A stretch of 64,000 nt of DNA. Origin: Winogradskyella echinorum (GTDB taxonomy: Bacteria > Bacteroidota > Bacteroidia > Flavobacteriales > Flavobacteriaceae). Numbering within the stretch: the first letter of the stretch is position 1; each line of letters opens with the position of its first letter. The translations under genes were made by a program, and so were the position numbers. The stretch spans positions 620,001 to 684,000 of the forward strand of contig NZ_JACOQD010000002.1 in the NCBI RefSeq assembly GCF_014297365.1. Direction: 5' to 3'. The notes under the pieces were generated by a model, which saw only the letters and a list, made by a program, of their open reading frames with translations, made no database searches and was not told the origin of the DNA. Below, piece by piece: positions 5,006 through 21,545 of the stretch.

Positions 5006-5338
5006 ATGGGTTTAACTAAAAGTGAAATATTTACAGACCAACAAAATGAGATTTCTAACATAGCAAAGGTGTTTGGTCATCCTGCTAGAGTAGCTATTCT
5101 GCAGCATATATTTAAATCAAACACGTGTATCTGTGGTGACTTGGTTGAAGAAATTGGCTTAGCACAACCTACGATATCTCAACATTTAAAGGAATTAAAA
5201 AAAGTAGGATTGATAAAAGGAAATATTGAAGGCACAAGTGTTTGCTATTGTATTGATGAAGAAAATTGGTCTAATATGAAAACAATTATTTCAGATTTTA
5301 TTAATCAAGATATAAATGAACAAAACAACTGTTGTTAA
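5006..5338 (+). CDS. arsR: ArsR-family metalloregulatory repressor
   Basis: 110 residues with the ArsR/SmtB winged helix-turn-helix: AKVFGHPARVAILQHI (residues 20-35), sensor-helix CIC (Cys41, Cys43) followed by GDLVEEIG, and recognition helix QPTISQHLKELKKVG (54-68). Extra cysteines sit in the wing (Cys80, Cys82) and as a C-terminal Cys109-Cys110 pair, all candidate arsenite ligands. It is the first gene of a four-gene operon with DUF6428, arsenate reductase and ACR3, so it is the likely repressor of arsenic resistance. Selectivity for As(III) over Sb(III) cannot be read. Confidence 0.88.
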   Translation: MGLTKSEIFTDQQNEISNIAKVFGHPARVAILQHIFKSNTCICGDLVEEIGLAQPTISQHLKELKKVGLIKGNIEGTSVCYCIDEENWSNMKTIISDFINQDINEQNNCC

Positions 5339-5362
5339 ACAAAATTATAAATCACTAGAATT

Positions 5363-5833
5363 ATGAAACTTTCAGAGATTAAATCAAAATTAAATGAGCT
5401 TGAAACTATAGCTTTTAAATTGCCAAACGGAACTTTAGTGCCAAGTCATTTCCATGTTACGGAAGTTGGCAAAATCACTAAAAACTTTATTGATTGTGGT
5501 GGTACTGTGCGTTATGAAGAAGTCGTTAACTTTCAACTGTGGAATGCTAATGATTACAACCACAGGCTACATCCAGAAAAATTATTGAACATTATAGAAT
5601 TGTCTCAGAAGACTTTAAATATTATGGACAATTTAGAAATTGAAGTCGAATATCAAGCAGATACCATTGGGAAGTTTGGTTTAGATTTCGATGGAACAAG
5701 CTTCCTACTTACCTCAAAACAAACAGATTGTTTAGCAAAAGACAATTGTGGTATTCCTGTAGCAAAACCAAAAGTAAAATTAGCTGATCTGTCAGCCGAA
5801 CCTTGCTGCACACCTGACGGAAATTGTTGTTAA
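5363..5833 (+). CDS. DUF6428 family protein, arsenic operon
   Basis: 156 residues, cytosolic, no signal peptide. The N-terminal part has LPSHFHVTEVG-like spacing (P27-S-H-F-H) and CGGTVRYEEVVNFQLW. The last ~25 residues are Cys-rich, ending EPCCTPDGNCC. From memory this matches DUF6428, a family regularly found between arsR and arsenate reductase in Bacteroidota. The His and Cys pairs suggest metalloid binding, for example a chaperone or scavenger. It lies 24 bases after arsR and 20 before the reductase. No enzymatic activity is known. Confidence 0.75.
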   Translation: MKLSEIKSKLNELETIAFKLPNGTLVPSHFHVTEVGKITKNFIDCGGTVRYEEVVNFQLWNANDYNHRLHPEKLLNIIELSQKTLNIMDNLEIEVEYQADTIGKFGLDFDGTSFLLTSKQTDCLAKDNCGIPVAKPKVKLADLSAEPCCTPDGNCC

Positions 5834-5853
5834 TTAACTAAGAAAAATCACCT

Positions 5854-6468
5854 ATGCTATTCAACCAAATTAAAGAGCAGATAGATCAATTAGATATAAA
5901 TTCTATTTCAGATGATAGAAAAAATGTGCTACAACCGCTTATTGATTTCATTCAAGATAAAGTAAACAAAGCGCAACTGATAAATCTTAATTTTATCTGT
6001 ACGCATAACTCACGTCGTAGTCACTTATCCCAAGTTTGGGCACAGTCAATGGCGAGTAATTTCCATATTAACAATGTAGTTTGTTATTCTGGCGGAACGG
6101 AAGCCACTGCTCTATTTCCATCAGCTGCTGAAGCTTTAAGCGAATCTGGATTTAAAATTGAAAAATTATCAAATGAATCTAATCCGGTTTATGCTATAAA
6201 ATTTTCAGAGACTGAACATCCTGTAATAGGTTTTTCTAAAACTTATGATGCTGAATTTAATCCTATTTCGAATTTTGCAGCCATAATGACTTGTTCTAGC
6301 GCAGATGCTGGTTGTCCTTTTATTGCTGGTGCTGAAAAACGCATTCCAATAACTTTTGAAGATCCAAAAGCTTTTGATGGTACTCCACAACAAGCTGAAA
6401 AATATAAAGAACGTAGCCTTCAAATTGCAACAGAATTAAAATACGTGTTTTCTCAAGTTAAAAAATAG
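5854..6468 (+). CDS. arsC: Arsenate reductase-like low-molecular-weight phosphatase
   Basis: 204 residues. After a ~40-residue helical N-terminal extension comes the LMW-PTP P-loop Cys49-THNSR-Arg55-Ser56 (CX5RS). A second cysteine pair, Cys147 and Cys154 ([11 protein letters not shown]), has the same 7-residue spacing as the Cys82/Cys89 relay of thioredoxin-coupled Staphylococcus/Bacillus ArsC. This supports reduction of arsenate to arsenite by a three-cysteine cascade. The next gene is the arsenite pump, so the pathway is complete. The N-terminal extension and the overall length exceed classical ArsC (~130 residues). Confidence 0.85.
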
Positions 6469-6473
6469 TGACC

Positions 6474-7529
6474 ATGACTAAAGCCAAAAAGAAACTCAGT
6501 TTTTTAGATAGTTATCTTACTTTATGGATCTTCTTAGCAATGCTTGTAGGTGTAGGCATAGGCTATTTTGCACCTTCATTTCCAAAACTAATAGACTCCT
6601 ATAGTAGCGGAACCACCAACATCCCAATTGCCATTGGACTTATTTTAATGATGTATCCACCACTTGCTAAAGTAAATTATGCGTTATTACCAAAAGTGTT
6701 TAAAGATGTAAAAGTTTTGTCTATTTCCTTAGTTTTAAATTGGATTATTGGACCTGTACTTATGTTTATTCTTGCCATTATATTCTTGCAAGATTACCCA
6801 GAGTATATGGTTGGCTTAATTCTTATTGGATTAGCACGTTGTATTGCTATGGTGTTGGTTTGGAACGATTTAGCTGAAGGGAGTAGTGAGTATGGAGCTG
6901 GTCTGGTTGCACTTAATAGTATTTTTCAAGTTTTCGCATATAGCTTCTATGCTTACTTATTTATTACTGTGCTCCCACCCTATTTTGGTTTTGAAGGTGC
7001 TATTGTAGATATTTCTATTACAACAATTGCTGAAAGTGTTGCTATTTATCTAGGAATTCCATTTTTACTCGGTATTTTTTCGCGATTAATTTTAGTGAAA
7101 TTAAAAGGAGAAGAATGGTATACTAAAACCTTTATTCCAACAATTTCACCGATGACGTTGATCGCCTTATTATTTACAATTGTGGTTATGTTTTCGCTCA
7201 AAGGTGAACTTATTGTTGAAATACCAATGGATGTACTTATCATCGCAGTACCGTTGCTAATCTATTTTGCTCTAATGTTTGTCATCGGATTTTTTGTGAG
7301 CAAAGCTATGGGAGCAACATATGATAAAAATGCTGCAATCGCATTTACAGCAGCTGGCAATAATTTTGAATTAGCTATTGCCGTAGCCATTGCCGTTTTT
7401 GGATTAAATTCCGGACAAGCATTCGCAGGTGTCGTAGGACCTCTAGTAGAAGTACCAGCTTTAATTTTGTTAGTTAGAGTGGCATTTTGGTTACGCAAAA
7501 AATACTATTTACCTAAAGTAACTTCGTAA
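6474..7529 (+). CDS. acr3: ACR3-family arsenite efflux transporter
   Basis: About 351 residues with ten hydrophobic spans. Recognisable ACR3 segments are [16 protein letters not shown] (first span), the [21 protein letters not shown] segment with the conserved functional cysteine (Cys123 from this start), and [17 protein letters not shown] near the C-terminus. It pumps arsenite out using the proton motive force. A GTG at 6468 overlapping the preceding stop could add two residues; the ATG at 6474 is the more usual start. Fourth gene of the arsenic operon. Confidence 0.92.
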
Positions 7530-7553
7530 AAATTGCTCATATCAGAAATTGAT

Positions 7554-7605
7554 GTTAAATTTTGTTTAACTTTATTTACAAATAGTTAAACATTGTGTAT
7601 CTTTA
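7554..7605 (+). promoter_or_regulatory. Promoter with 9-12-9 palindromic operator, copy 1
   Basis: TGTTTAACT (7563-7571) and its reverse complement AGTTAAACA (7584-7592) are separated by 12 bases. A further GTTAA lies 9 bases upstream of the left arm (7554). The Bacteroidota -7-like element TATCTTTA (7598-7605) begins after a 5-base gap, and a -33 region would fall inside the palindrome spacer. The same architecture recurs at 16156-16207. A bound dimer would cover the -33 region, consistent with repression, plausibly by the TetR-like product of the next gene. Confidence 0.65.
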
Positions 7606-7623
7606 CATTGTAAATCAATTACA

Positions 7624-8280
7624 ATGGCAAAAAAGAAAAACATAAAACAATCGGACATCGTTTCATTTTACATGGATTATGTCTTAACTCACAATCATAA
7701 ACCCAAATCAGTTTATGCTTTTGCTAAGGACAACAATTTTGAAGAACAAAAATTCTATGAGTTTTTTAATTCTTTTGAGGTCTTAGAACAATCTATTTTC
7801 AAAATATTCTTCGATAATACGCTTGAAGTTTTACATAAAAGCGAGGATTATCAATCTTTTGATGCACGGAATAAATTACTCAGTTTCTATTTCACTTTTT
7901 TTGAAGTATTAACAGCAAATAGAAGTTATGTAATCCATGCTTTAAACGCGGATAAAAACCAATTGAAATCACTCAAGGTGCTTTCGCATTTAAAAAAGAG
8001 TTTCACCAATTATATTGAGTTATTAGACATTAAAACGCTAGATCTTAAGCAAGAGAAGCTCGAAAAACTTAAAAATAGAGGTCTTAAAGAATCAGCTTGG
8101 TTTCAATTACTATTAACCATGAAATTTTGGATTGACGACACGTCACCATCATTTGAAAAAACAGATATTTATATTGAGAAATCTGTTCAGGCTAGCTTCG
8201 ATTTAATCGACACAACACCATTAAAAAGTCTAATAGATTTCGGTAAATTCTTGTATAAAGAAAAAATACACTCCAACTAG
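7624..8280 (+). CDS. TetR-like transcriptional regulator, first gene of photolyase operon
   Basis: 218 residues, fully helical composition. Residues ~8-60 (IKQSDIVSFYMDYVLTH, KPKSVYAFAKDNNFEEQKFYEFFNSF) have the spacing of a TetR HTH: helix 1, then the AFAKDNNFEEQKFYEFF helix-turn-helix. The rest matches the TetR C-terminal ligand/dimer domain found in Bacteroidota (TetR_C_23 type). The conserved glycine of a classical TetR HTH turn is replaced (DNN), so DNA binding is probable but not certain. The gene lies directly behind the palindromic operator, and its neighbours are light/oxidative-stress genes, so autoregulation is likely. The stop abuts the next ATG. Confidence 0.7.
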   Translation: MAKKKNIKQSDIVSFYMDYVLTHNHKPKSVYAFAKDNNFEEQKFYEFFNSFEVLEQSIFKIFFDNTLEVLHKSEDYQSFDARNKLLSFYFTFFEVLTANRSYVIHALNADKNQLKSLKVLSHLKKSFTNYIELLDIKTLDLKQEKLEKLKNRGLKESAWFQLLLTMKFWIDDTSPSFEKTDIYIEKSVQASFDLIDTTPLKSLIDFGKFLYKEKIHSN

Positions 8281-9591
8281 ATGAAAACGATAGATAGTAT
8301 TCCAATTACAAAAATATCTAGAGCTAGTAAACTAGTTTCTACAGGTGCAAAAGTAGGCGTCAACTACTTAAAGTATTATGGTGATAAAATGGTAAATTCT
8401 AAAGAAGATGCCAAAGAACGTTTAAACCAAAATAATGCTGAAGACATCTACGATAGCCTAAAAAAATTAAAAGGTAGCGCCCTAAAAGTGGCTCAAATGC
8501 TAAGTATGGAAAAGAGCATTTTGCCACAGGCATATGTTGAGAAATTTTCGTTATCGCAATTCTCCGTGCCTCCATTATCGCCACCATTAGTTATAAAAAC
8601 ATTTAAAAAATATTTCGGAAAACATCCCGAAAATCTATTTGATACTTTCAACGCAACTTCAGTAAATGCCGCCAGTATTGGCCAAGTCCATATAGCGGAT
8701 AAGAATGGGAAAAAATTTGCTGTGAAAATCCAATATCCTGGAGTTGCGGAGAGTATCGCTTCAGACTTAGCTTTGGTAAAACCCATTGCTATTAAAATGT
8801 TTAATATTAAAGGAAAAGACTCTGATAAATATTTTAAAGAAGTTGAAAATAAACTTACAGAAGAAACAAATTACATATTAGAAATGGCGCAAAGTAAAGC
8901 GGTTGCTGAAGCTTGCCAACATATTCCTAATCTTAAATTTCCGAAGTATTATGAAGAATTTTCATCAGAGCGTATTATTACTATGGATTATATGAAAGGC
9001 GAACATCTTTCAGAATTTGTAGCGCATAATACAGATCAAAATCTTTCGAACAAAATCGGACAAGCCTTATGGGATTTCTATATGTTTCAAATTCACAAGT
9101 TGAAAAAAGTACATGCAGATCCGCATCCTGGAAACTTTTTAATTTCGGAAGATGGTCATTTAATTGCTCTAGACTTTGGTTGCATGAAAACGATTCCAGA
9201 GGAATTCTACAAACCTTATTTTGAATTAGCCGATAAGGACTGCATTAATAATCCTGAAGCTTTTACAGAAAAGTTATATGAATTAGAAATTCTACGCACA
9301 GATGATAGTGAAGAAGAAATCACATTTTTTAGTGCTATGTTTCATGAGTTATTAAGCTTGTTCACAAAACCGTTTCATGTTGAAGAATTTGATTTTTCAA
9401 ACCCTGAGTTTTTTAATCAAATTACAGAAATGGGACAACGCTACTCAAAAAGCACAGAACTGCGTAATATGAATGGTAACAGAGGTTCTAAGCATTTTAT
9501 ATATATCAACAGAACCTTCTTTGGATTGTATAATTTAATGTTTGATCTCAAAGCTGAAAACGTAAAAATCAACAATTTTAATAACTTATAA
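8281..9591 (+). CDS. ABC1/UbiB/AarF family kinase-like protein
   Basis: 436 residues with atypical-kinase motifs: KLKGSALKVAQMLS (KxxQ motif region, ~62-75), the Ala-rich nucleotide loop NAASIGQVH, FAVKIQYPGV (Lys of the beta3 strand), HADPHPGNFL (catalytic loop) and LIALDFGCMK (DFG). COQ8/UbiB members support ubiquinone biosynthesis through an unusual ATPase, and plastid relatives (ABC1K) tune prenyl-lipid and photo-oxidative stress responses. Bacteroidota make menaquinone, so a role in isoprenoid-quinone or carotenoid homeostasis is inference. It abuts both neighbours with zero spacing. Confidence 0.85.
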   Translation: MKTIDSIPITKISRASKLVSTGAKVGVNYLKYYGDKMVNSKEDAKERLNQNNAEDIYDSLKKLKGSALKVAQMLSMEKSILPQAYVEKFSLSQFSVPPLSPPLVIKTFKKYFGKHPENLFDTFNATSVNAASIGQVHIADKNGKKFAVKIQYPGVAESIASDLALVKPIAIKMFNIKGKDSDKYFKEVENKLTEETNYILEMAQSKAVAEACQHIPNLKFPKYYEEFSSERIITMDYMKGEHLSEFVAHNTDQNLSNKIGQALWDFYMFQIHKLKKVHADPHPGNFLISEDGHLIALDFGCMKTIPEEFYKPYFELADKDCINNPEAFTEKLYELEILRTDDSEEEITFFSAMFHELLSLFTKPFHVEEFDFSNPEFFNQITEMGQRYSKSTELRNMNGNRGSKHFIYINRTFFGLYNLMFDLKAENVKINNFNNL

Positions 9592-10230
9592 ATGGTTGAA
9601 TTCAGTAATGACGATCTCAAAAAAATGCATCATTTATATAGAATCAACTTAATCAATAGTTGTTCTGGATATAAATCGGCAAATTTAATAGGTACTAAAA
9701 GTAACGATGGCATTAGCAATGTCGCAGTCTTTAGTTCTATAACGCATTTAGGCTCAAATCCTGCTTTATTAGGATTCTTTTTAAGACCGACAACTGTAAT
9801 GCGGAATACCTATCATAATATTAAAGCGACAGGAAATTATACCATAAATCATATTTACGATGATATTCTAAACGATGCACATCATACCTCTGCAAAGTAC
9901 GATGGGCATATTTCAGAATTTGATGTTACCAATTTATCCGAAGACTTTAAAGATGGGTTTTCATCTCCGTTTGTTAAAGGGTCTCCAGTACAAATGGCAA
10001 TGGAATATGTTGAAGAATATCCTATTGCCGCGAATAATACCATTTTAGTAATAGGTAAAATTAAAAAGCTCTATATTGATGATACTTTACTCGAAAAAGA
10101 TGGTTTTGTCAATTTATCAAAAGGCAAAGTAGCGACTATAAATGGTTTAGATGGCTATGCTATTCCTGAATTAAAGCAACGATTAGATTACCAAAGACCA
10201 AAACCACAATTTGTAAATTCAAATGACTAA
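9592..10230 (+). CDS. Flavin reductase family protein
   Basis: 212 residues of the split-barrel FMN-binding flavin-reductase fold: NLIGTKSNDGISNVAVFSSI (residues ~25-44), NPALLGFFLRP, TTVMRNTYHNIKATGNYTIN, and SPVQMAMEYVEEYP. Such proteins bind FMN and either reduce free flavin with NAD(P)H or act as flavoprotein oxidoreductases. It lies in an operon with three FAD-dependent photolyase homologues, so a flavin-reducing partner role is attractive but unproven. The stop shares a base with the next start. Confidence 0.82.
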   Translation: MVEFSNDDLKKMHHLYRINLINSCSGYKSANLIGTKSNDGISNVAVFSSITHLGSNPALLGFFLRPTTVMRNTYHNIKATGNYTINHIYDDILNDAHHTSAKYDGHISEFDVTNLSEDFKDGFSSPFVKGSPVQMAMEYVEEYPIAANNTILVIGKIKKLYIDDTLLEKDGFVNLSKGKVATINGLDGYAIPELKQRLDYQRPKPQFVNSND

Positions 10231-11648
10231 TGCGCATATTAATCACAGGTACAACAGGCTACATAGCACGGAGACTAGCGCTCCAACTGCTCGAAAATAA
10301 GCACGAGCTTATTTGCTGTGTACGTGATTTAAATCGCATTCCAGATGAAATTGAAGATAATCCACTTTGCACCTTCATAAAGGTTGATTTTTTAAAACCT
10401 GATACGGCAGAAATACCAAACGATATCGATGCAGCCTATTATTTAATACATTCGATGTCCACCAGTTCTGATGATTTTGAAGACTTAGAATTACAATGTG
10501 CCGAAAATTTCAAAAAACTGGTTGAACCAACACATTGTAAACAGGTCATTTATTTAAGTGGTATTGTTAATGACGAGTCATTATCAAAACATTTAAAATC
10601 GAGATTACAGGTAGAAAACACATTAAAATCCGATTCCTACGCCTTAACTACATTTAGAGCCGGAATAATTGTCGGTAGTGGAAGCGCTTCTTTCGAAATT
10701 ATAAGAGATATCGTAGAGAAACTACCTTTTATGATAACTCCAAAATGGCTCAACACTAAAACACAACCTTTAGCAATTAGAGATGTTTTAAACTTTTTAG
10801 CTGGTGGATTAGGCAAAGAAGAATTATACAACAAAGCTTACGATATTTTTGGTCCTGAGGTACTGACTTACAAAGAAATGCTATTGCAATTTGCAGAAGT
10901 CAGAGGATTAAAACGTTATATCGTTACACTACCTGTTCTTACACCAAAATTATCCTCGTATTGGCTGTATTTTGTAACATCAACATCCTTTCAATTAGCA
11001 GCTGCTTTAGTCGATAGTATGAAAGTTGAAGTTATAGGTAAACCAAGTAATATCAATGAAATTATAGGTATAGAACCTATGGATTATAAAACTGCTGTGG
11101 ATTTAGCCTTTCAAAGAATTGAACAAAATGCAGTAATATCGAGCTGGAAAGATGCCGTAAGCAGCGGACGTTTTAAAGACCAATTGTCTAAGCATATCGA
11201 AATTCCACAATACGGTTGTTTTAAAGATGAAAGACAAAAAACTGTTACTGATGAAGCTTATACCTTAGATAGAATCTGGGGAATTGGTGGTAGAAATGGT
11301 TGGTATAGTTTCAATGGACTTTGGAAAATAAGAGGCTATATGGACAAACTCTTTGGTGGTGTTGGTCTAAGACGTGGAAGAACCAGCGACACGTATTTAG
11401 AAGCTGGTGATGCTCTAGATTTTTGGCGTGTTTTGTATGCTAGTAAAGAAGAAAAACGATTATTGCTTTTTGCCGAAATGCGTTTACCTGGTGAAGCTTG
11501 GTTAGAATTTAAAATTGTTAAAGGCCAATTGCACCAACGTGCTGTTTTTAGACCAAAAGGTATTTGGGGACGATTGTATTGGTATGCTGTTTTACCATTT
11601 CATGCTTTTGTTTTTAACGGTATGATTAACGCTTTGGTGAAAAAATGA
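10230..11648 (+). CDS. SDR/NmrA-like NAD(P)-binding protein with DUF2867 domain
   Basis: 472 residues. The N-terminal extended-SDR Rossmann motif is [16 protein letters not shown] (residues ~6-21), with [10 protein letters not shown] and [19 protein letters not shown] following. The C-terminal ~150 residues match DUF2867 ([53 protein letters not shown]). Proteins of this two-domain type are often near photolyase and carotenoid genes in bacteria; the substrate is unknown. It ends with an ATGA overlap into the DUF2256 gene, indicating tight translational coupling. Confidence 0.85.
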
Positions 11649-11794
11649 AAGGTGTAAAAAAAGAAAATCTTCCAACAAAAATGTGTCCCAAATGCAATCG
11701 ACCATTCACTTGGAGGAAAAAATGGGAAAAGAATTGGGACAATGTAAAATATTGTAGTGAAAAATGCAGAAGACAGAAAACAATATCAACTTAG
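11645..11794 (+). CDS. DUF2256 zinc-ribbon-like small protein
   Basis: A 49-residue [20 protein letters not shown]..., matches the DUF2256 pattern: Cys14-x2-Cys17, [19 protein letters not shown], then Cys37-x3-Cys41-RR. The four cysteines suggest a small zinc-binding protein. It starts inside the previous stop (ATGA) and its 3' end overlaps the DASH cryptochrome start by 31 bases, so it is easily missed. DUF2256 genes are recurrently found beside cryptochrome/photolyase genes. The biochemical role is unknown. Confidence 0.85.
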
Positions 11795-13071
11795 TATGGT
11801 TTAGAAATGATTTAAGAACCATTGACAACGCCGTTTTGTTTGAGGCACAAAAAAACAGTGACAAACTTATTGCTGTCTATTGTTTTGACCCACGACATTT
11901 TGATTTAGATCCATACGGTTTTAAGAAAACTGAAAAATTCAGAGCTAAATTTTTAATAGAAACGGTTACCGATTTAAAGACACAACTCAATAAGCTTAAT
12001 ATTGAATTATTGGTTTTTAATGCACAACCAGAAGCTGTAATTCCTCAATTGTGTGCAGAATACAAAATCAATACTATTTTTCTTCAAAAGGAATGGACAT
12101 CTGAAGAACTATCTGTAGAAAATGTTGTAAAATCGAAATGTAAAGACTGTCAATGGCATGCCGTTTATAATCAGTTTCTGTATCATCCTGAGGATATTAA
12201 TTTTGATTTCTCTGATACTCCACAGGTTTTTACAGTCTTCAGAAAAAAGCTTGAAAAACATGTAAACATTCGTCCAGAATTAAATGTATCAAAATACTCT
12301 GAAAACAATCGAATAAAGAATAACACCAAAATTCCATCACTCAACGACTTGGGATTCGAAGATTTTGATAATCACACGCATTCTGCATTCCCATTTCAAG
12401 GCGGAGAAACACATGCTTTCAAACGACTTGAAGATTATTTTTTCAATACTAAAAAACTAGGATTTTATAAGAAGACCAGAAATGGATTGGTTGGTAAAGA
12501 TTACAGTTCAAAATTTTCACCATGGTTAGCAAACGGTAGTTTATCTGCGAGGACAATTTATTGGAGTATCAAAAAATTTGAAAAAGAACATTTTAAAAAC
12601 GAATCGACCTATTGGCTCATTTTCGAACTGATTTGGCGTGATTATTTTAAATACATTTCCTTAAAACATGACAGCCAAATCTTTAAACTAGAAGGTATTC
12701 TTAACAAAGATTATACATGGAAAACTGATCAGAATTCTATTCAAAACTGGATTAATGGAGAAACAGCATCCGATTTTGTAAATGCCAATATGCTGGAGTT
12801 AAAGAATACAGGTTGGATGAGCAACAGAGGACGACAGAATGTGGCATCTTATTTTGCCAAATCCTTAGAACTCGATTGGCGCATTGGCGCAGCCTATTTT
12901 GAATCGCTTCTACTCGATTATGATGTACATAGTAATTATGGCAATTGGATGTATGTTGCTGGAGTTGGCAATGACCCTAGAGACAGAAAATTCAATGTGC
13001 AGTTGCAAGCAGAACGTTACGATGCCAGCGGAAAATTCAGAAACCTATGGTTACAACCTAGTTTATTTTAA
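11764..13071 (+). CDS. DASH-type cryptochrome/photolyase
   Basis: 435 residues. The N-terminal alpha/beta antenna domain starts [18 protein letters not shown]. The FAD domain has the DASH-type end [20 protein letters not shown], then [41 protein letters not shown] in sequence, so the Asn near FAD N5 and the FAD-proximal Trp are present. DASH proteins repair cyclobutane dimers mainly in single-stranded DNA under blue light, usually with FAD and a methenyltetrahydrofolate antenna, and may signal. It overlaps the DUF2256 gene at its 5' end; the ATG at 11764 is the only start preserving the [10 protein letters not shown] strand. Confidence 0.93.
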
Positions 13072-13096
13072 TGATAGAAAAAGATAGCAGAATTCA

Positions 13097-14629
13097 ATGA
13101 ACACATTACGACTCATATTAGGTGACCAACTCAATTCTCAGCATTCATGGTTTACAGAAACCAATGAGAACGTCACCTATTGCCTTTTTGAAATGCGACA
13201 AGAAACGGATTATGTAAAGCATCATATTCAAAAAGTTATTGGATTTTTTGCTGCGATGAGAAGTTTTGCTGAAGAACTAAAATCGCAAGGACACAACGTC
13301 ATTTACTTCAAAATTAATGATGAAAGTAACACGCAAAGTTTAGTCGATAATCTTTCAAAATTAATTAAAGACTACGCTATTGAATGTTTTGAATATCAAT
13401 TGCCTGACGAATATCGATTAGACCAACAACTCTCTGAATTCTGTAATTCATTAGACATTGAAACCAACACCTACGATTCCGAACATTTTTACACTTCCAG
13501 ATACGAATTAAAAGATTTTTTTGAAGGCAAAAAGACCTATCTCATGGAAAACTTTTATCGCAACATGCGCAAAAAACACGAGGTTTTAATGGAAGGTAAG
13601 CAACCTGAAGGTGGTCAATGGAATTACGATAAAAGCAATAGAAAAAAGTGGAAAGGCAAGCCCGAAATTCCGCATTACAAATGGTTCATTAATGATGTTT
13701 CAGATATTGTATCAGACATAGAAAAAGCCGATATAAAAACCATTGGTCATTTTAAAACTGAGACATTTAGTTATCCTATAAACAGATCTCAGGCATTAGA
13801 GCAACTCAATTATTTCTGCGAGCATTTGTTAATACGATTCGGTGATTACCAAGATGCGATGCATACAGATCAGGTGTATTTATTTCATTCGCGTATATCG
13901 TTTGTTATGAATATTAAATTGATAGGTCCAAAGGAAGTTATAGGCGCTGTAATTGATTACTACTACGATCATAAAACTGAGATTGACATATCTCAAGTCG
14001 AAGGTTTTGTGAGACAAATCATTGGCTGGCGCGAATATATGAGAGGTATGTATTGGGCATTAATGCCAGATTATAAAACAGAAAATCACTTAAAAAACAC
14101 AAATAAACTACCTGAGTTTTTCTGGACAGGTAACACAAAAATGAATTGCCTAAAACAGAGCATAATTAATTCATTAGACAATGCTTATGCGCATCACATC
14201 CAACGCTTAATGATTACAGGCAATTATGCCTTATTAACACAAATAGATCCCGATGAAGTAGATGCTTGGTATTTGGGTATCTATGCAGATGCCATAGAAT
14301 GGGTGCAATTGACCAACACTAGAGGCATGAGTCAGTTTGCTGATGGTGGTAAAATTGCAACAAAACCCTATGTATCTTCAGGTAGTTATATTGATAAAAT
14401 GAGTAACTACTGCGAAAAATGTCACTATAACAAAAAAGAAAAAACAACCGATAAGGCTTGCCCATTTAACAGTTTGTATTGGAATTTTTTGGATGATAAA
14501 AGAGACATTCTTGGTAATAATAGACGTATGGGAATGATGTATAGTTTATTAGATAAAATGGATAAAGGCCAATTGAATAGTATAAAAGAACGTGCAACCG
14601 CAATCATAGAAAATCCGGATGAATACTAA
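13097..14629 (+). CDS. FeS-BCP family (6-4) photolyase/cryptochrome (PhrB/CryB type)
   Basis: 510 residues, beginning with LRLILGDQLNSQHSW as in the iron-sulfur bacterial cryptochrome/photolyase group. The four cluster ligands are Cys351 (MNCLKQS), Cys439 and Cys442 (YCEKCHYN) and Cys455 (KACPFNSLYW). Their spacing equals that reported for Agrobacterium PhrB (Cys350, 438, 441, 454) shifted by one residue. PhrB repairs (6-4) photoproducts with FAD, a [4Fe-4S] cluster and a dimethylribityllumazine antenna. The FAD-domain segment GWREYMRGMYWALMP is present. It overlaps the next photolyase gene by 11 bases. Confidence 0.92.
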   Translation: MNTLRLILGDQLNSQHSWFTETNENVTYCLFEMRQETDYVKHHIQKVIGFFAAMRSFAEELKSQGHNVIYFKINDESNTQSLVDNLSKLIKDYAIECFEYQLPDEYRLDQQLSEFCNSLDIETNTYDSEHFYTSRYELKDFFEGKKTYLMENFYRNMRKKHEVLMEGKQPEGGQWNYDKSNRKKWKGKPEIPHYKWFINDVSDIVSDIEKADIKTIGHFKTETFSYPINRSQALEQLNYFCEHLLIRFGDYQDAMHTDQVYLFHSRISFVMNIKLIGPKEVIGAVIDYYYDHKTEIDISQVEGFVRQIIGWREYMRGMYWALMPDYKTENHLKNTNKLPEFFWTGNTKMNCLKQSIINSLDNAYAHHIQRLMITGNYALLTQIDPDEVDAWYLGIYADAIEWVQLTNTRGMSQFADGGKIATKPYVSSGSYIDKMSNYCEKCHYNKKEKTTDKACPFNSLYWNFLDDKRDILGNNRRMGMMYSLLDKMDKGQLNSIKERATAIIENPDEY

Positions 14630-16112
14630 CAGAGAACATATCAATGTGGTGTGGCTTAAACGCGATTTAAGACTTCAGGATAATGAGGCGATTTCTTGTG
14701 CATTATCTACAGGAAAACGTACACTCATCATTTATGTTTTTGAACATATTTTACTAAATGATGATCATTATAGCGAACGCCATTTTAACTTCATAAAAGA
14801 ATCTCTTAGAGATATAAATATAAAATTAGAGGCTTACGATTCCAAAGTACTTTGTGTTACTAGCGATATTACAAGTGCATTTAATCAGTTACAAGAGTCT
14901 TATAAAATTGATACCATTTATTCGCACGTAGAAACGGGCTTATTAGTCACCTACAATAGAGATAAAGAATTTAAACGATACTGCCGAAATAATTTTATAG
15001 AATGGCACGAATCTAAAAACAATGGTGTAGAACGTGGTTTATTGAATAGAGATAATTGGTTTGAAAACTGGGAGGATTATATGAACAGTAATCTTGAAGT
15101 ATTTGAACCTCTCGACAACCAATTGCTCAATAGTAACGAAATTGACCATTTAGAGAAAGTCTTTTCTGTAACGGATTTAAACACACCAACAGAGACTAAT
15201 TTTCAGAAAGGTGGTACAACTATGGGTTGGAAATATGCCAATTCATTTTTTGAAACTCGTCACGAAGAATACATGTTCAATATCTCAAAACCAGAAGCCT
15301 CAAGAAGTAGTTGCAGTAGAATTTCGCCATATATAGCTTGGGGAAATTTATCGATAAGACAAGTTTTTCAAAAAGCAAATCAATTAAAAAAAGTGTCTAA
15401 AGAGAGGCAACATATTGGTGCGTTTATTTCGCGATTGCGTTGGCAAGCTCACTTCATTCAAAAGTTTGAAATGGAACACACGATGGAAAATGCAAGCGTT
15501 AATAAAGGTTATCACAAACTTAAGAAAAGCATATCGGACAGTTATATTGACGCATGGAAAACAGGCCAAACGGGATTTCCATTAGTCGATGCAAGTATGC
15601 GATGTTTAATTGAAACAGGTTACGTTAATTTTAGAATGCGTGCCATGTTGGCATCCTTTTTCACTCACATATTGTGGCAACCTTGGCAGTATGCTACCAC
15701 ACATTTATCGCAACAGTTCTTAGATTTTGAACCTGGTATTCATTTTCCACAATTACAGATGCAAGCTGGTGAAACTGGTATCAATAACCTAAGAATTTAC
15801 AACCCAACTTTAAATGGATTAAAACACGATCCTGATGCAACATTCATTAAAAAATGGGTGCCAGAATTAGCGCATCTAGACATCGCCTTTATTCATGAAC
15901 CATATCTTATGACAGAGATGGAACAGACCTTTTATAATTTTAAGTTAGGCGAAGATTACCCAATGCCTATTGTAGATATAAAGGAAAATCGTAAACGCGC
16001 TAGTGATATTCTCTGGAATATGAAAAAGGATCCTACGGTAGTTCGTGAAAGTTTTAGAATTTTAAAACGACATACTATACAAGACAGAAATCGTATGCTG
16101 AAAAGCGACTAA
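14619..16112 (+). CDS. Divergent cryptochrome/photolyase lacking the FAD-proximal Trp
   Basis: 497 residues. The N-terminal photolyase domain starts VVWLKRDLRLQDNEA and the FAD-binding domain has SRISPYIAWGNLSIRQ, RLRWQAHFIQKF, GQTGFPLVDASMRCL and RIYNP. Where class I enzymes have ASNVGNWQW, this protein reads GIHFPQLQM (Leu379 at the FAD-proximal Trp position, and His375/Phe376 near the Asn that contacts FAD N5). Two outer Trp positions (RLRW, QPWQY) remain. The photoreduction chain is therefore altered. The protein belongs to a known but poorly characterised bacterial branch annotated as photolyase. Last gene of operon 1. Confidence 0.85.
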   Translation: MNTNREHINVVWLKRDLRLQDNEAISCALSTGKRTLIIYVFEHILLNDDHYSERHFNFIKESLRDINIKLEAYDSKVLCVTSDITSAFNQLQESYKIDTIYSHVETGLLVTYNRDKEFKRYCRNNFIEWHESKNNGVERGLLNRDNWFENWEDYMNSNLEVFEPLDNQLLNSNEIDHLEKVFSVTDLNTPTETNFQKGGTTMGWKYANSFFETRHEEYMFNISKPEASRSSCSRISPYIAWGNLSIRQVFQKANQLKKVSKERQHIGAFISRLRWQAHFIQKFEMEHTMENASVNKGYHKLKKSISDSYIDAWKTGQTGFPLVDASMRCLIETGYVNFRMRAMLASFFTHILWQPWQYATTHLSQQFLDFEPGIHFPQLQMQAGETGINNLRIYNPTLNGLKHDPDATFIKKWVPELAHLDIAFIHEPYLMTEMEQTFYNFKLGEDYPMPIVDIKENRKRASDILWNMKKDPTVVRESFRILKRHTIQDRNRMLKSD

Positions 16113-16155
16113 TTCTTCATTCGATATAAACACTTTTCTATACTCATAATTATCT

Positions 16156-16207
16156 GTTAATTTTTGTTTAACTATTTTGATAAATAGTTAAACATTTAGT
16201 ATATTTG
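16156..16207 (+). promoter_or_regulatory. Promoter with 9-12-9 palindromic operator, copy 2
   Basis: TGTTTAACT (16165-16173) and AGTTAAACA (16186-16194) are separated by 12 bases. GTTAA lies 9 bases upstream of the left arm, and the -7 element TATATTTG (16200-16207) follows after 5 bases, all exactly as at 7554-7605. By eye 45 of 57 aligned bases agree between the copies. The -7 element ends only 7 bases before the ATG at 16215, so the message of operon 2 may have almost no leader. Confidence 0.7.
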
Positions 16208-16214
16208 ACTAGAT

Positions 16215-16646
16215 ATGATACTGAACACGACTCATTATAATGCTGAACACAAACAGATTATTGCCGACTTAGTTGGCAGTCCTTTTAGTTTGGTACAGAA
16301 ATTGAAAATGAATGGTGTAGGTTCTAAACGCATGATCATTGATGAAGTGAGTCCAAATATGCAATCGTTGATGAATTTGGTTTCAGACATTAATTATGGT
16401 AATATAGAATTAAGACCTAAAGGCATTCTCATAAGAATAAATAAAGGTTTAAAAAATTTTACATGGATTATACCTTATTACCATCTCGTTATTTATAAAA
16501 TCAATGGTTCTAGCATACATGCACAAGGAAAATTTGTGCATTTTAGAGCAAATAAAACATTTCGTGAAAACAAAAAGTTTTTTGACAAACTTTTAGATGA
16601 AAAAACGAAATATGATATGCAATATGCAATGCCTCATAGTTTATGA
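16215..16646 (+). CDS. Conserved-looking hypothetical protein, first gene of operon 2
   Basis: 143 residues, no signal peptide or membrane span, basic. Visible features: a helical N-terminus (YNAEHKQIIADLVGSPFSLVQKLKMNG), a central beta-rich part (NIELRPKGILIRINKGLKNFTWIIPYYHLVIYKING) and a C-terminal KTFRENKKFFDKLLDEK helix. No family is recognised with confidence. It is the first gene behind the second copy of the operator and overlaps the TIGR03643 gene by 4 bases (ATGA), so it belongs to the photolyase regulon. A start at a later Met would remove the first 31 residues but leave a longer leader. Confidence 0.7.
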   Translation: MILNTTHYNAEHKQIIADLVGSPFSLVQKLKMNGVGSKRMIIDEVSPNMQSLMNLVSDINYGNIELRPKGILIRINKGLKNFTWIIPYYHLVIYKINGSSIHAQGKFVHFRANKTFRENKKFFDKLLDEKTKYDMQYAMPHSL

Positions 16647-16915
16647 AATTAGAACTTAGAGATATAGATAGAATTATAGAAATGGCATGGGAAGACAGGA
16701 CACCGTTTGATGCTATTACCTTTCAATTCAAATTAAAAGAACAAGAGGTTATTAATTTAATGCGTCGCGAATTAAAACCTAGTAGCTTCAGATTATGGAG
16801 AGCAAGAGTACAAGGCAGAGCTACTAAACACAGTAAAAAAAGAACGTTTGACGAAGGCAGATTTAAATGCTCGAGACAAAGAATAATAACAAACAACTCT
16901 ATTTCAAAACGTTAA
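16643..16915 (+). CDS. TIGR03643 family protein
   Basis: 90 residues. The segment DIDRIIEMAWEDRTPFDAI, then FQFKLKEQEVINLMRRELKPSSFRLWRARVQGRATKH, is the TIGR03643 pattern: a small basic protein with a helix-turn-helix-like fold. The family travels with cryptochrome, photolyase and carotenoid genes in Proteobacteria and Bacteroidota. No function is established; the basic C-terminus and HTH-like spacing suggest nucleic-acid binding. It overlaps the upstream gene by ATGA and is followed by a 55-base gap before folE. Confidence 0.85.
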   Translation: MKLELRDIDRIIEMAWEDRTPFDAITFQFKLKEQEVINLMRRELKPSSFRLWRARVQGRATKHSKKRTFDEGRFKCSRQRIITNNSISKR

Positions 16916-16970: not shown

Positions 16971-17663
16971 ATGAAAACAGAAACGATTTCCAAAAAAAAT
17001 GGTCACAGTCTAAAAGCCTTTAATGTAGAAGATATCGGAGACGACCATTTATTTACAGGTTTAGAAACACCGATGAAGCCTAACGCTTTTGAAATGTCTA
17101 ATACCGAAAAAAAAGAACGCATATCTATCTTATTTTCAGAAATAATGGATGTTCTAGGTTTAGACCTAAATGATGATTCTCTACAAGGTACGCCAGACAG
17201 AGTAGCTAAAATGTATGTAGAAGAAATTTTCTCAGGACTAGATCCAAAGAATAAGCCAAAAGTTGCACTCTTTGATAATAAATATCAGTATAATCAGATG
17301 CTTGTAGAAAAGAATATTACTTTCTACTCTAATTGCGAACATCATTTTGTACCAATTATTGGTAAAGCACACATTGCATACAAATCATCTGGAAAGGTTA
17401 TTGGACTTTCAAAATTAAACCGCATTGTACAGTATTACGCCAAGCGTCCACAGGTACAAGAACGTTTAACGAACCAAATAGCAAATGAATTAAAAACTGT
17501 TTTAAACACAGAAAATGTCGCTGTTATTATAGATGCTAAACATTTATGTGTATCTTCAAGAGGTATAAAAGACGATACATCAACAACAGTAACAACTTAT
17601 TATGGAGGTGAATTTAATACGGCCTCAAAAATTGCAGAATTACAAAACTATATAAACAATTAA
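16971..17663 (+). CDS. folE: GTP cyclohydrolase I
   Basis: 230 residues. Zinc-site motifs are FYSNCEHHFVPIIGKAHIAY (Cys122, His125) and KHLCVSSRGIKDDTSTTVT (Cys193), with QGTPDRVAKMYVEEIFSG and LSKLNRIVQYYAKRPQVQERL between and before them. The enzyme converts GTP to dihydroneopterin triphosphate, the first step of folate and pterin synthesis. Its place in a four-photolyase regulon suggests supply of a folate/pterin antenna chromophore (methenyltetrahydrofolate) rather than housekeeping folate. The N-terminal ~45 residues are an extension compared with the bacterial core enzyme. It lies 3 bases before the next gene. Confidence 0.95.
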   Translation: MKTETISKKNGHSLKAFNVEDIGDDHLFTGLETPMKPNAFEMSNTEKKERISILFSEIMDVLGLDLNDDSLQGTPDRVAKMYVEEIFSGLDPKNKPKVALFDNKYQYNQMLVEKNITFYSNCEHHFVPIIGKAHIAYKSSGKVIGLSKLNRIVQYYAKRPQVQERLTNQIANELKTVLNTENVAVIIDAKHLCVSSRGIKDDTSTTVTTYYGGEFNTASKIAELQNYINN

Positions 17664-17895: not shown

Positions 17896-18582
17896 ATGAA
17901 AACTATAATAGTTATTGGAGGAAGCAAAGGTATAGGTAATGCAATAGTTTCTTCTTTGCTTTCTTCAAATAACAAAGTTGTAAACATTAGCAGAACATCA
18001 CCAGAACAATCGCACGAAAATTTTACGCATTATAACTGCGATGTGTTACACGATGAATTACCAGATATAGGTGTTGCAGACGGTCTTGTTTATTGTCCGG
18101 GAAGCATAAATCTTAAACCCATAAGTAGACTGAGTATAGACGATTTTAAAAGCGATTTTGAAATTAATGTGCTTGGAGCGGTCAAAGCGGTTCAAAAATA
18201 TTTAGCCATCTTAAAAAATGGTAACAAACCATCAATACTACTATTTAGTACTGTGGCTTCTAAATTAGGTATGCCATTTCATGCCAGCGTAGCAGCTTCA
18301 AAATCTGCAGTAGAAGGTTTAACCAAATCATTAGGTGCAGAATTAGCACCGACTATTCGTGTTAATGCAATCGCACCTACAGTAACAAATACAGATTTAG
18401 CTTCTAAATTATTACGAAACGAAAGGATGATTGAAAACATGAATGAGAGACATCCACTCAAAAAATATTTAGAACCACAAGAAGTTGCGGATATGGCTAT
18501 ATTTTTATTGTCTGATAAAGCTGCGTCCTTATCTGGACAGATTTTTGAAATGGATTGCGGTATTGTTAGCTTTAAACTATAG
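17896..18582 (+). CDS. SDR-family protein lacking the catalytic Tyr
   Basis: 228 residues with the classical SDR cofactor motif GGSKGIGNAI (residues ~7-16), an NxLG strand (NVLGAVKAVQKYL), the Ser-containing LLFSTVASKLG, and the C-terminal NAIAPTVTNTDLASKLL. The active-site YxxxK is here V132-A-A-S-K136, so the proton-donating Tyr is missing while the Lys remains. It may be a non-catalytic SDR, or use another residue. The same gene type accompanies photolyases in other bacteria (from memory). It lies 3 bases before the glutathione peroxidase gene. Confidence 0.85.
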   Translation: MKTIIVIGGSKGIGNAIVSSLLSSNNKVVNISRTSPEQSHENFTHYNCDVLHDELPDIGVADGLVYCPGSINLKPISRLSIDDFKSDFEINVLGAVKAVQKYLAILKNGNKPSILLFSTVASKLGMPFHASVAASKSAVEGLTKSLGAELAPTIRVNAIAPTVTNTDLASKLLRNERMIENMNERHPLKKYLEPQEVADMAIFLLSDKAASLSGQIFEMDCGIVSFKL

Positions 18583-18585
18583 ACT

Positions 18586-19125
18586 ATGAACCCTTTTAAA
18601 GCATTCATCAGTACAATATCGACTACAGATGCCAGTGTAAAACAAAATGCACTACAATCTATTTATGATATTGAAATTAATAGTCTTCAAGGCAAACCAA
18701 TTCAACTTTCCGACTTTAAAGGAAAAAAGATATTATTTGTAAATGTAGCTTCAAAATGCGGATTTACACCTCAATATAGAGAGTTACAGCAATTACATGA
18801 AACCTATAAGAATAACTTAGTAGTTATTGGTGTACCATGTAACCAATTTGGAAAACAAGAACCAGGTCAATCTAATGAGATTCAAGAATTTTGTGAGGTT
18901 AATTACGGTGTGTCTTTTTTAATAACCGAGAAGATTAGTGTTAAAGGCTTAAATCAGCATCCATTGTACAAATGGTTAACAAAGAAAGCTATTAACGGCC
19001 GACAAAATTCAGTGGTGAAATGGAATTTTCAGAAATATTTAGTAGATGAAAATGGTGAGTTCATTGATTACTTCTACTCGATTACAAAACCAATGAATTC
19101 TCGTATTACCAAATATTTAAAATAA
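18586..19125 (+). CDS. Glutathione peroxidase-type thiol peroxidase
   Basis: 179 residues. The peroxidatic residue is Cys58 in NVASKCGFTPQYREL (Cys rather than selenocysteine), with the GVPCNQFGKQEPG and VKWNFQKYLVDENG motifs supplying the Gln and Trp-Asn of the GPx tetrad. It reduces hydrogen peroxide and lipid peroxides, in such Cys forms usually with thioredoxin. There is a ~25-residue N-terminal extension before the core. Its position inside the photolyase operon fits defence against photo-oxidative damage. Confidence 0.92.
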   Translation: MNPFKAFISTISTTDASVKQNALQSIYDIEINSLQGKPIQLSDFKGKKILFVNVASKCGFTPQYRELQQLHETYKNNLVVIGVPCNQFGKQEPGQSNEIQEFCEVNYGVSFLITEKISVKGLNQHPLYKWLTKKAINGRQNSVVKWNFQKYLVDENGEFIDYFYSITKPMNSRITKYLK

Positions 19126-19302: not shown

Positions 19303-19767
19303 TTGAAAAGAATTTACTATTTAATAATTTTTCTTGCCATCAATTTTGGTGGTTTAGCTTTAGGAAGCTGGCTTATGGACTCAGGGCCAACCTCAGAATG
19401 GTATCTAAACCTAAATAAAGCACCATGGACACCACCAGGTTGGGTTTTTGGTGCAGCATGGACATTGATTATGCTATGTTTTTCTTGGTACTTAAGTGTT
19501 CTATTTCATTTGAGAAAATCGCGGTTTTTGTGGCTTCTATATTTATTTCAAGTATTACTAAATGTAAGCTGGAACTGGATCTTCTTCAATCAGCATTTAA
19601 CCAACATTAGTTTAGTAGTTATCATTTTACTAACACTGGTTATATTTTATTACTTCATAACGTTTAGAAGTGATAAACTTAAAAACGCAAAGTATTTACT
19701 GCTACCCTATTTAATTTGGTTATGCATTGCAACCTCACTAAATGCATACATTGTCTTTAACAACTAA
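19303..19767 (+). CDS. tspO: TspO/MBR family tryptophan-rich membrane protein
   Basis: 154 residues with five membrane spans and the family pattern FGGLALGSWL, NKAPWTPPGWVFGAAWTLIM and LNVSWNWIFFNQH. TspO binds tetrapyrroles and is linked to light, oxygen and oxidative-stress regulation in Rhodobacter and other bacteria. The start is a TTG (19303) directly after the stop of the preceding gene; no earlier ATG exists in frame. Its presence in the photolyase operon agrees with a photosensitiser-handling role, which is inference. Confidence 0.9.
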   Translation: MKRIYYLIIFLAINFGGLALGSWLMDSGPTSEWYLNLNKAPWTPPGWVFGAAWTLIMLCFSWYLSVLFHLRKSRFLWLLYLFQVLLNVSWNWIFFNQHLTNISLVVIILLTLVIFYYFITFRSDKLKNAKYLLLPYLIWLCIATSLNAYIVFNN

Positions 19768-19775
19768 GAATTCTG

Positions 19776-20237
19776 ATGAAAATATATAGATTACATAAAA
19801 AACAAAATCTACCTATTACTATTGACCAAGCGTGGGATTTTTTATCGAGTCCGAAAAACCTTAAAACGATTACACCAGATTATATGGGTTTTAATATCCT
19901 ATCGGGTGCTGACAGACCAATGTTTCCAGGTCAGATCATTCAATACATTGTCACTCCAGTGTTAGGTATAAAAACAAAATGGGTCACAGAGATTACACAT
20001 GTTAGAGATAAAGAATACTTTGTAGATGAACAACGCTTTGGACCGTATGCTCTTTGGCATCATAAACATTTTATTAAAGAAATTGAAGGTGGTGTAGAGA
20101 TGGAAGATATTATAGATTACAAAGTGCCAATGGGAATTTTAGGTCAACTAGTTCACCCAATTTTAGTAAAACCAAAACTCGAAGAAATTTTTAACTACCG
20201 AACAAAAAAGCTAGAAGAACTTTTTGGCAAATATTAG
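19776..20237 (+). CDS. SRPBCC (START-like) family protein
   Basis: 153 residues of the helix-grip fold: HKKQNLPITIDQAWDFLSSPKNLKTITPDYMGF at the N-terminus, TKWVTEITHV, the DEQRFGPYALWHHKHFIKE strand pair and a long C-terminal helix. These proteins bind small hydrophobic ligands; the ligand here is unknown. Relatives are recurrent neighbours of photolyase and carotenoid genes. It is 3 bases from the CPD photolyase gene. Confidence 0.85.
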   Translation: MKIYRLHKKQNLPITIDQAWDFLSSPKNLKTITPDYMGFNILSGADRPMFPGQIIQYIVTPVLGIKTKWVTEITHVRDKEYFVDEQRFGPYALWHHKHFIKEIEGGVEMEDIIDYKVPMGILGQLVHPILVKPKLEEIFNYRTKKLEELFGKY

Positions 20238-20240
20238 TTT

Positions 20241-21545
20241 ATGAATTCTACTGTAAATATTTTTTGGTTTAGAAGAGACCTGAGATTAGACGATAATGTT
20301 GGTTTTTATGAAGCCTTAAGAGGAGAACATCCTGTATTACCAATTTTTATTTTCGATTCTGAAATTTTGAATAAGTTACCAAAAGATGATGCTCGTGTAA
20401 CTTTTATACATAAAACGCTTCAAGGCATGAGGCAGACTTTGCAAGACGAACATGCAAGTAGTATTGCAATTTATCATGGCAAACCAAAAGATATTTTTAA
20501 GACCTTATTAAAAGAATTTAAAATTCATACTGTTTATACTAATCACGATTACGAACCTTATGCAAAAGAACGTGATGAAGAAATAGAAAAGTTACTAGAT
20601 AAAAATGATGTTAGCTTTAAAACTTTCAAGGACCAGGTAATTTTTGAAAAAGATGAAGTTGTAAAAAAAGATGGTGATCCATATGTCGTGTACACACCTT
20701 ATATGCGCACATGGAAGGAAAAATTTAAAACTATAGACCTAGAGATTTTTTACACCAATTCCTATCTCAACAACTTAGTTGAACATTCAAGATTGCCAAA
20801 TTTAAGTTTATCAGACATTGGGTTTAAAACTTCGAAACAAGAAATTGCAGATTATGAAGTAACACCTACTCTAATTCAACAATACGAAGACACTCGAAAT
20901 TTCCCAGCAAAGGATGCCACATCTCGATTAGGTCCTCACTTACGTTTTGGTACGGTTAGCATTCGTAAAATGATTAAAAAAGCCATTGCTGAAAACAATG
21001 AAATCTTTTGGCAAGAATTGATTTGGCGCGAATTTTTTATGCAAATTCTATGGCATTATCCTAGAACAAAAGATGAATCTTTTAAAACAAAGTACGACCG
21101 CATAGAATGGAGAAATAATGAAAAAGAATTTAAAAAATGGTGCGAAGGTCAAACAGGTTATCCATTAGTGGATGCTGGTATGCGCCAGCTCAACGAAACC
21201 GGTTTTATGCATAATCGCGTGCGTATGTTGGTTGGCAGTTTCCTCTGCAAACATTTACTAATAGATTGGCGTTGGGGAGAAGCCTATTTTGCAGAGAAAC
21301 TTCATGATTACGAAATGGCCAGCAATGTTGGTAATTGGCAATGGGTTGCGGGAAGTGGTGTTGATGCTGCACCTTATTTCAGAATTTTTAATCCAACAAC
21401 TCAGATAGATAAATTCGATAAAGACAGAAAGTACATTAAAAAATATGTCCCAGAATTTGAGTCTGATGATTATGTGGAAAGAATGGTTGATCATAAAGAA
21501 GCTAGAGAACGTTGCTTAGAAACTTATAAATCTGCATTAAATTAA
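20241..21545 (+). CDS. phr: Deoxyribodipyrimidine (CPD) photolyase, class I
   Basis: 434 residues. The antenna domain starts IFWFRRDLRLDDNVGFYEAL. The FAD domain has SRLGPHLRFGTVSIRKM, FWQELIWREFFMQIL, GQTGYPLVDAGMRQLNETG, the RVRMLVGSFLCKHLLIDWRWGE block, and MASNVGNWQWVAGSGVDAAPYFRIFNP, so the FAD-N5 Asn and all three Trp of the photoreduction chain are in place. It splits cyclobutane pyrimidine dimers with blue light. It is the last gene of operon 2; a terminator follows 120 bases downstream. Confidence 0.95.
   Translation: MNSTVNIFWFRRDLRLDDNVGFYEALRGEHPVLPIFIFDSEILNKLPKDDARVTFIHKTLQGMRQTLQDEHASSIAIYHGKPKDIFKTLLKEFKIHTVYTNHDYEPYAKERDEEIEKLLDKNDVSFKTFKDQVIFEKDEVVKKDGDPYVVYTPYMRTWKEKFKTIDLEIFYTNSYLNNLVEHSRLPNLSLSDIGFKTSKQEIADYEVTPTLIQQYEDTRNFPAKDATSRLGPHLRFGTVSIRKMIKKAIAENNEIFWQELIWREFFMQILWHYPRTKDESFKTKYDRIEWRNNEKEFKKWCEGQTGYPLVDAGMRQLNETGFMHNRVRMLVGSFLCKHLLIDWRWGEAYFAEKLHDYEMASNVGNWQWVAGSGVDAAPYFRIFNPTTQIDKFDKDRKYIKKYVPEFESDDYVERMVDHKEARERCLETYKSALN

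Follow-up and report, generated by a model that had tools for sequence, protein, structure and literature searches.

A palindromic operator at two photolyase-cryptochrome operons of Winogradskyella echinorum, probably bound by a CarH/LitR-family MerR/B12 protein rather than by the neighboring TetR-like protein

Which protein acts on the palindrome that stands in front of two consecutive operons in a 64,000-nucleotide stretch of the Winogradskyella echinorum genome (hereafter the window; G000:C3:620001-684000 in its own genome)? Both operons encode enzymes of the photolyase and cryptochrome families, and the first one opens with the gene of a TetR-like protein (7624-8280), which a first-pass annotation of the window had taken as the binder. 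We propose, with a probability of roughly 0.82 and on comparative grounds, that the palindrome is instead the operator of a CarH/LitR-family MerR/B12 repressor controlling a light-stress regulon. The site is conserved among relatives, co-occurs with the gene of this regulator, and is found at the regulator's own locus beside carotenoid (crt) genes.

The palindrome TGTTTAACT-N12-AGTTAAACA, 30 bp in length, occurs without a mismatch at 7563-7592 (copy 1, ending 31 bp upstream of the TetR start codon) and at 16165-16194 (copy 2). Our recomputation reproduced the features described in the first-pass annotation, including both pairs of coordinates, an extra GTTAA upstream of the left arm at 7554 and 16156, and 45 agreeing bases among the 57 aligned between the two copies. 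Five bases past the right arm lie the elements TATCTTTA (7598-7605, plus strand, operon 1) and TATATTTG (16200-16207, plus strand, operon 2), called -7-like by sequence, a label that for the element at 7598 follows the Bacteroidota promoter consensus. The observation of no third copy is true of the window and also of the 3.78 Mb genome, in which the pattern search returned two perfect copies only. With up to 3 mismatches allowed, the strict pattern matches the window twice, both times perfectly, whereas dinucleotide shuffles of the window gave a mean of 0.14 matches and reached two in 1 of 100 shuffles; these shuffles and the counts of a reversed control pattern led us to reject a chance origin. 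The next best strict match in the genome, at C5:101478, has 2 mismatches. At 3 mismatches the genome yields 9 matches versus 15 for the control, and matches with 2-3 mismatches, being near the control level genome-wide, were not used alone to name regulon members. The relaxed core TGTTTAAY-N14-RTTAAACA (hereafter the core) has four exact places in the genome versus none for its reversed control: the two window copies, C3:952077 ahead of a fasciclin-domain gene, and C5:101478 ahead of an operon encoding two Porph_ging proteins and one outer-membrane protein. In addition, a variant of the core on contig C8 lies over the start codon of a MerR/B12 gene.

The TetR protein led us to 80 named loci, and in 61 of them the core stands immediately upstream of the TetR gene with one mismatch or none; 41 of 48 loci carry it upstream of orf143, the first gene of operon 2. 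The notion of a conserved, protein-type operator common to both operons is borne out by these counts, and the expected spacer of variable sequence and fixed length is seen across the orthologous loci, where the spacer bases vary and the arms and length are kept. The 19 TetR loci without the core comprise 11 of Flavobacterium (one titled only Flavobacteriaceae), which have weaker matches at the same place with 2-5 strict mismatches, one Bacteroidia metagenome-assembled genome with 2 mismatches, and seven of Flammeovirgaceae/Cyclobacteriaceae type. Conservation of the core in front of the TetR gene, the closeness of copy 1 to its start codon, and the TetR fold of the protein model all speak for an autorepressor binding both palindromes, as had been suggested; the distribution of the site over gene content nevertheless makes this a very improbable reading.

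We surveyed 393 genomes of the order under a completeness filter of 90%, of which 186 were MerR-positive. In G009, the MerR gene was not scored as absent, since all that is seen of it is a fragment at one end of a 3,637-base contig. The exact core was present in 105 of the 128 genomes with both the TetR and the MerR/B12 gene, in 29 of the 58 with MerR/B12 only, and in none of the 48 with TetR only (Fisher p = 3.5e-10 for MerR only versus TetR only). Matches to the control pattern were found in 14, 0, and 3 genomes of these classes, respectively, and in 1 genome with neither gene. The best matches in ten TetR promoter regions from 9 TetR-only genomes had 3-6 mismatches, and some genomes with no TetR hit do have sites. 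Three Winogradskyella genomes contain a second TetR-UbiB pair (L118, L119, and L120), with a TetR 48-50% identical and no palindrome. Moreover, the TetR-like protein has no TetR_N Pfam match, and its net charge is only +1 in the helix-turn-helix region and -1 in the recognition region. The higher rate of the core in genomes with both genes (105/128 versus 29/58) and the place of the TetR gene at the head of a target operon would fit a different arrangement, in which the MerR/B12 protein shares its sites with the TetR-like protein as a local co-regulator. However, genomes with both genes may simply have more target operons each, and closer MerR relatives, which would be enough to raise the rate, and a recognizable site (2 mismatches) remains before a TetR only 42% identical (G087); we consider joint regulation unlikely.

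The MerR/B12 gene of W. echinorum (G000:C8:21563-22462) lies directly ahead of a crtI-like gene, a phytoene synthase gene, and a lycopene cyclase gene. The Pfam check agreed with the crt and HtpG names used here (amine oxidase-type desaturase, squalene/phytoene synthase, lycopene cyclase, and HSP90). We compared 38 MerR/B12 loci inside Winogradskyella with 69 outside it, a part of the 186 MerR-positive genomes; since near relatives are among the 69, these loci are not independent of one another. The pattern TGTTTAA-N17-TGAACA lies over the MerR/B12 start codon in 37 of the 38 Winogradskyella loci, and every one of the 38 has AAC as its second codon, versus 30% AAC among the Asn codons of open reading frames at the same loci; the same pattern is exact in 26 of the 69 other loci. 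Searching from 300 bp before to 700 bp after the gene, we found a core with no more than one mismatch in 40 of these 69 loci, where shuffles predicted 0.05, mostly 5-40 bp downstream of the gene; the downstream site scored in L198 is the TetR promoter site itself. Wherever a site downstream of MerR/B12 was checked, crtI followed it (27 of 27 loci). All 12 loci scanned in families f4, f7, and f14 have the gene of an extracytoplasmic function (ECF) sigma factor between the site and crtI (e.g., L365, 1536-2045).

Both kinds of dissociation from the TetR gene were observed. Five genomes without a TetR hit have the site at the MerR/B12-crt locus (G086 and G088 of f1, G091 of f3, and G102 and G113 of f14), and a sixth (G108 of f7) has a site with one mismatch shortly before the MerR/B12 gene. 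Conversely, the TetR loci of G095 and G127 have no site, and the crt site of both genomes is perfect. In the 29 MerR-only genomes with the exact core, taking one locus each, 19 sites are at MerR/B12, ahead of crtI with at most one intervening gene, or both, 6 are at fasciclin, short-chain dehydrogenase (SDR)/photolyase, HtpG, or TspO genes, and 4 are elsewhere.

The C8 protein has an N-terminal MerR DNA-binding domain (PF13411 and PF00376 over the cut-off) and a C-terminal B12-type domain consisting of a four-helix bundle and a Rossmann part (PF02607 over the cut-off; PF02310 not reported). Its nearest solved structures by sequence are those of Thermus CarH (3whp and 5c8d-f; E 3-4e-9), and the 12 best Foldseek matches in the PDB for a model of the Arenibacter orthologue (mean pLDDT 79) are all CarH chains, including CarH bound to adenosylcobalamin (AdoCbl). 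Of 65 orthologues, 63 keep the Wx9EH motif and 64 keep [DE]xHxxG, which covers the axial-histidine motif ExHxxG; nearly all of them also have GxxW-x9-EH and a GxxxP. Like the CarH (LitR) proteins of Thermus thermophilus and Bacillus megaterium, it combines MerR and B12-type domains with Wx9EH and ExHxxG, its gene stands beside carotenoid genes, and the candidate operator has the half-site core TnnACA and, by sequence, may lie over a promoter. Taken together, co-occurrence, site position, and protein relatives move the probable binder from the TetR-like protein to the MerR/B12 protein.

The half-sites themselves point to this family. The CarH repeat is given as nAnnTnnACAn (PMC8156234; this and the other papers named by PubMed Central, PMC, number are cited from excerpts) and its half-site core as TnnACA (PMC9304148). 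All six half-sites of the window fit nAnnTnnACAn, namely both arms of each copy and the upstream boxes at 7552-7562 (GTTAA at 7554-7558) and 16154-16164 (GTTAA at 16156-16160), both on the minus strand; the palindrome arms are identical in sequence, and the six fits are not six independent tests, against a background of 135 (plus) and 104 (minus) matches in the 64 kb. The two arms face outward as an inverted repeat, their centers about 21 bp apart, with the third half-site 10 bp further upstream as a direct repeat. By sequence, the site lies 5 bp upstream of the -7-like element at the TetR and orf143 promoters, contains this element at the crtI promoter, and touches it with its left arm at the MerR/B12 gene itself. 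Since the site abuts or overlaps the -7-like element in each class, it would suit a repressor.

The target genes resemble those of the class II LitR proteins PplR1 of Pseudomonas putida and PmlR2 of P. mendocina, whose light-induced regulon comprises photolyase, cryptochrome, FolE, and SDR genes and whose sites read T(G/A)TACA-N12-TGTA(C/T)A (PMC9758184), with the same TnnACA core; a difference from class II LitR is that the Rossmann part is present in the C8 protein. The ECF sigma gene between the site and crtI in f4, f7, and f14 recalls the LitR-LitS-crt arrangement of Streptomyces (PMC12705666). Two differences are that Streptomyces LitR is reported there to promote transcription of litS in light and that crtI directly follows the MerR/B12 gene in W. 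echinorum. Photolyase and cryptochrome operons among the targets also set the present system apart from CarH. In Chryseobacterium lacus, the excerpted account (PMC7064467) describes light-induced carotenoids and no lit or car genes.

Several observations weigh against assigning the palindrome to the MerR/B12 protein. The window sites are not tandem 11-bp direct repeats, of which known CarH operators contain 3-4, and the spacing TGTTTA-N18-TAAACA differs from the N12 of the Pseudomonas sites. The exact core is missing in 29 of the 58 MerR-only and 23 of the 128 both-gene genomes, and it is present in 2 of the 159 genomes with neither gene (G475 and G386); in several MerR-only genomes without the core, the MerR is only about 35-42% identical to the protein of W. 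echinorum. The seven Flammeovirgaceae/Cyclobacteriaceae-type loci (L224-L227, L229, L236, and L237) have both genes and no core near either, and inspection of their intergenic regions proved no motif; in the five with MerR aligned, the DNA-binding domain is identical at only 32-36 of 76 positions. Lineage and gene content are partly confounded in the survey, as a single family, f5, supplies 46 of the 48 TetR-only genomes; the remaining two (G297 of f1 and G354 of f7) also lack the core. Finally, the whole B12 motif D/ExHx2G-x41-SxT/V-x22-27-GG is found in none of the 65 orthologues, its SxT/V...GG half being altered, and the GxxH of the light signature is NxxH in most of them; the former belongs to the classical B12-binding motif (PMC9304148) and the latter to a published light signature (PMC11796333).

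With these two departures, B12 may not be bound, and we do not file the C8 protein as a proven AdoCbl photoreceptor. The MerR/B12-type protein might bind the site without AdoCbl, with light sensed by a partner or with another stress sensed in place of light; a precedent is the class II LitR of Pseudomonas, which acts with a short LOV protein (PMC9758184). This possibility deserves consideration, and we think it the less probable one, given that GxxW-x9-EH, ExHxxG, and GxxxP are kept in nearly all orthologues and that the best structural matches of the model include the AdoCbl-bound CarH. Judged from these motifs, B12 binding by the C8 protein is likely but not secure.

If the palindrome is indeed the operator of the MerR/B12 protein, the C8 protein would bind the CarH-type half-sites (TnnACA) as an outward-facing inverted repeat, and the occupied site, lying across or against the promoter core, would block RNA polymerase. 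The protein would be bound in the dark and released by a signal that is most likely illumination, as in CarH and LitR; we infer light and repression from what is known of the family and from target genes that match the light-induced set of Pseudomonas LitR, with AdoCbl as the putative chromophore. Release would switch on both operons, and with them photolyases, cryptochromes, FolE, TspO, a peroxidase, and the UbiB module, as well as fasciclin genes, the regulator itself, and its carotenoid genes.

The TetR-like protein may then have a different role. The TetR_C_23 and UbiB/ABC1 genes form a nearly obligate pair: the latter follows the former in 123 of 124 distinct loci, the median gap is 0 bp, and the order holds whether or not the site is present. 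The highest matches of its model are TetR regulators (3c07, Z 16.5; 3ni7, Z 16.0), and human COQ9 follows at Z 12.9-13.1, tied with many TetR regulators; the fold search cannot separate COQ9 from regulators. COQ9 works with the COQ8/ABC1 kinase system in a non-regulatory role, and this makes a COQ9-like role, rather than regulation, an attractive though unproven option for a protein whose gene is coupled to UbiB/ABC1 and whose modeled fold aligns with human COQ9. The differences are a sequence identity to COQ9 of 14-15% and the higher scores of the two TetR regulators.

All genes of the two operons lie on the plus strand, and judged from the predicted products, their common theme is light-damage repair and protection. 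Operon 1 begins with the TetR-fold protein (7624-8280; Pfam TetR_C_23), a candidate UbiB partner rather than binder, followed by a UbiB/ABC1 (COQ8-like) atypical kinase (8281-9591), a flavin-reductase-like protein (9592-10230), an NAD(P)-binding protein with DUF2867 (10230-11648), a DASH-type cryptochrome (11764-13071), a photolyase-related protein (DPRP; 13097-14629), and, as the last gene, a cryptochrome/photolyase family protein (14619-16112). The DPRP position is occupied by two types in relatives, 73-93% identical in 12 listed of 50 and only about 34-35% identical in others (L098, L112, and L133), which suggests by sequence that the gene was replaced in place. Just ahead of copy 1, many Winogradskyella loci have an arsR-DUF6428-arsC-acr3 arsenic cluster (5006-7529), which is missing from other Winogradskyella loci and from the other genera read. 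Operon 2 begins with orf143 (16215-16646), a conserved 143-residue protein of no assigned function that has no Pfam or NCBIfam match and is nevertheless present in 84 of 149 genomes searched. It continues with a DUF2805/TIGR03643 protein (16643-16915), GTP cyclohydrolase I (FolE; 16971-17663), a short-chain dehydrogenase (17896-18582), a glutathione peroxidase-like protein (18586-19125), a TspO/MBR family protein (19303-19767), a 153-residue protein without a Pfam match (19776-20237), and a DNA photolyase (20241-21545), taken as the last gene from the spacing. Pfam did not confirm an SRPBCC label for the 153-residue protein.

Position and recurrence suggest further regulon members: fasciclin genes (C3:952077 in W. 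echinorum; G073, G082, G086, G088, and G169), the Porph_ging/outer-membrane operon (C5:101478; G062 and G084), htpG (G068, G078, G085, and G329), and, without a TetR hit, photolyase, SDR, and folE genes (G078, G085, G086, and G009). The titles, abstracts, and passages of open-licence PMC literature that we consulted contained no description of an operator of this kind, and the inverted-repeat geometry did not appear in the consulted parts of the CarH literature. We tentatively suggest, as a wider picture that is possible rather than probable, an order-wide flavobacterial light-stress regulon in which a CarH/LitR homologue on an inverted-repeat operator joins photorepair, cryptochromes, pterin synthesis, carotenoids (through an ECF sigma factor in some families), fasciclin proteins, and, in some genera, HtpG, with the TetR-annotated gene encoding a COQ9-like lipid partner of UbiB/ABC1 and no DNA-binding regulator. 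For work on light control in flavobacteria, the finding offers a concrete candidate operator with a list of targets; the assignment of the site to the product of the adjacent TetR gene is probably wrong, and TetR_C_23 proteins paired with UbiB may not be transcription factors.

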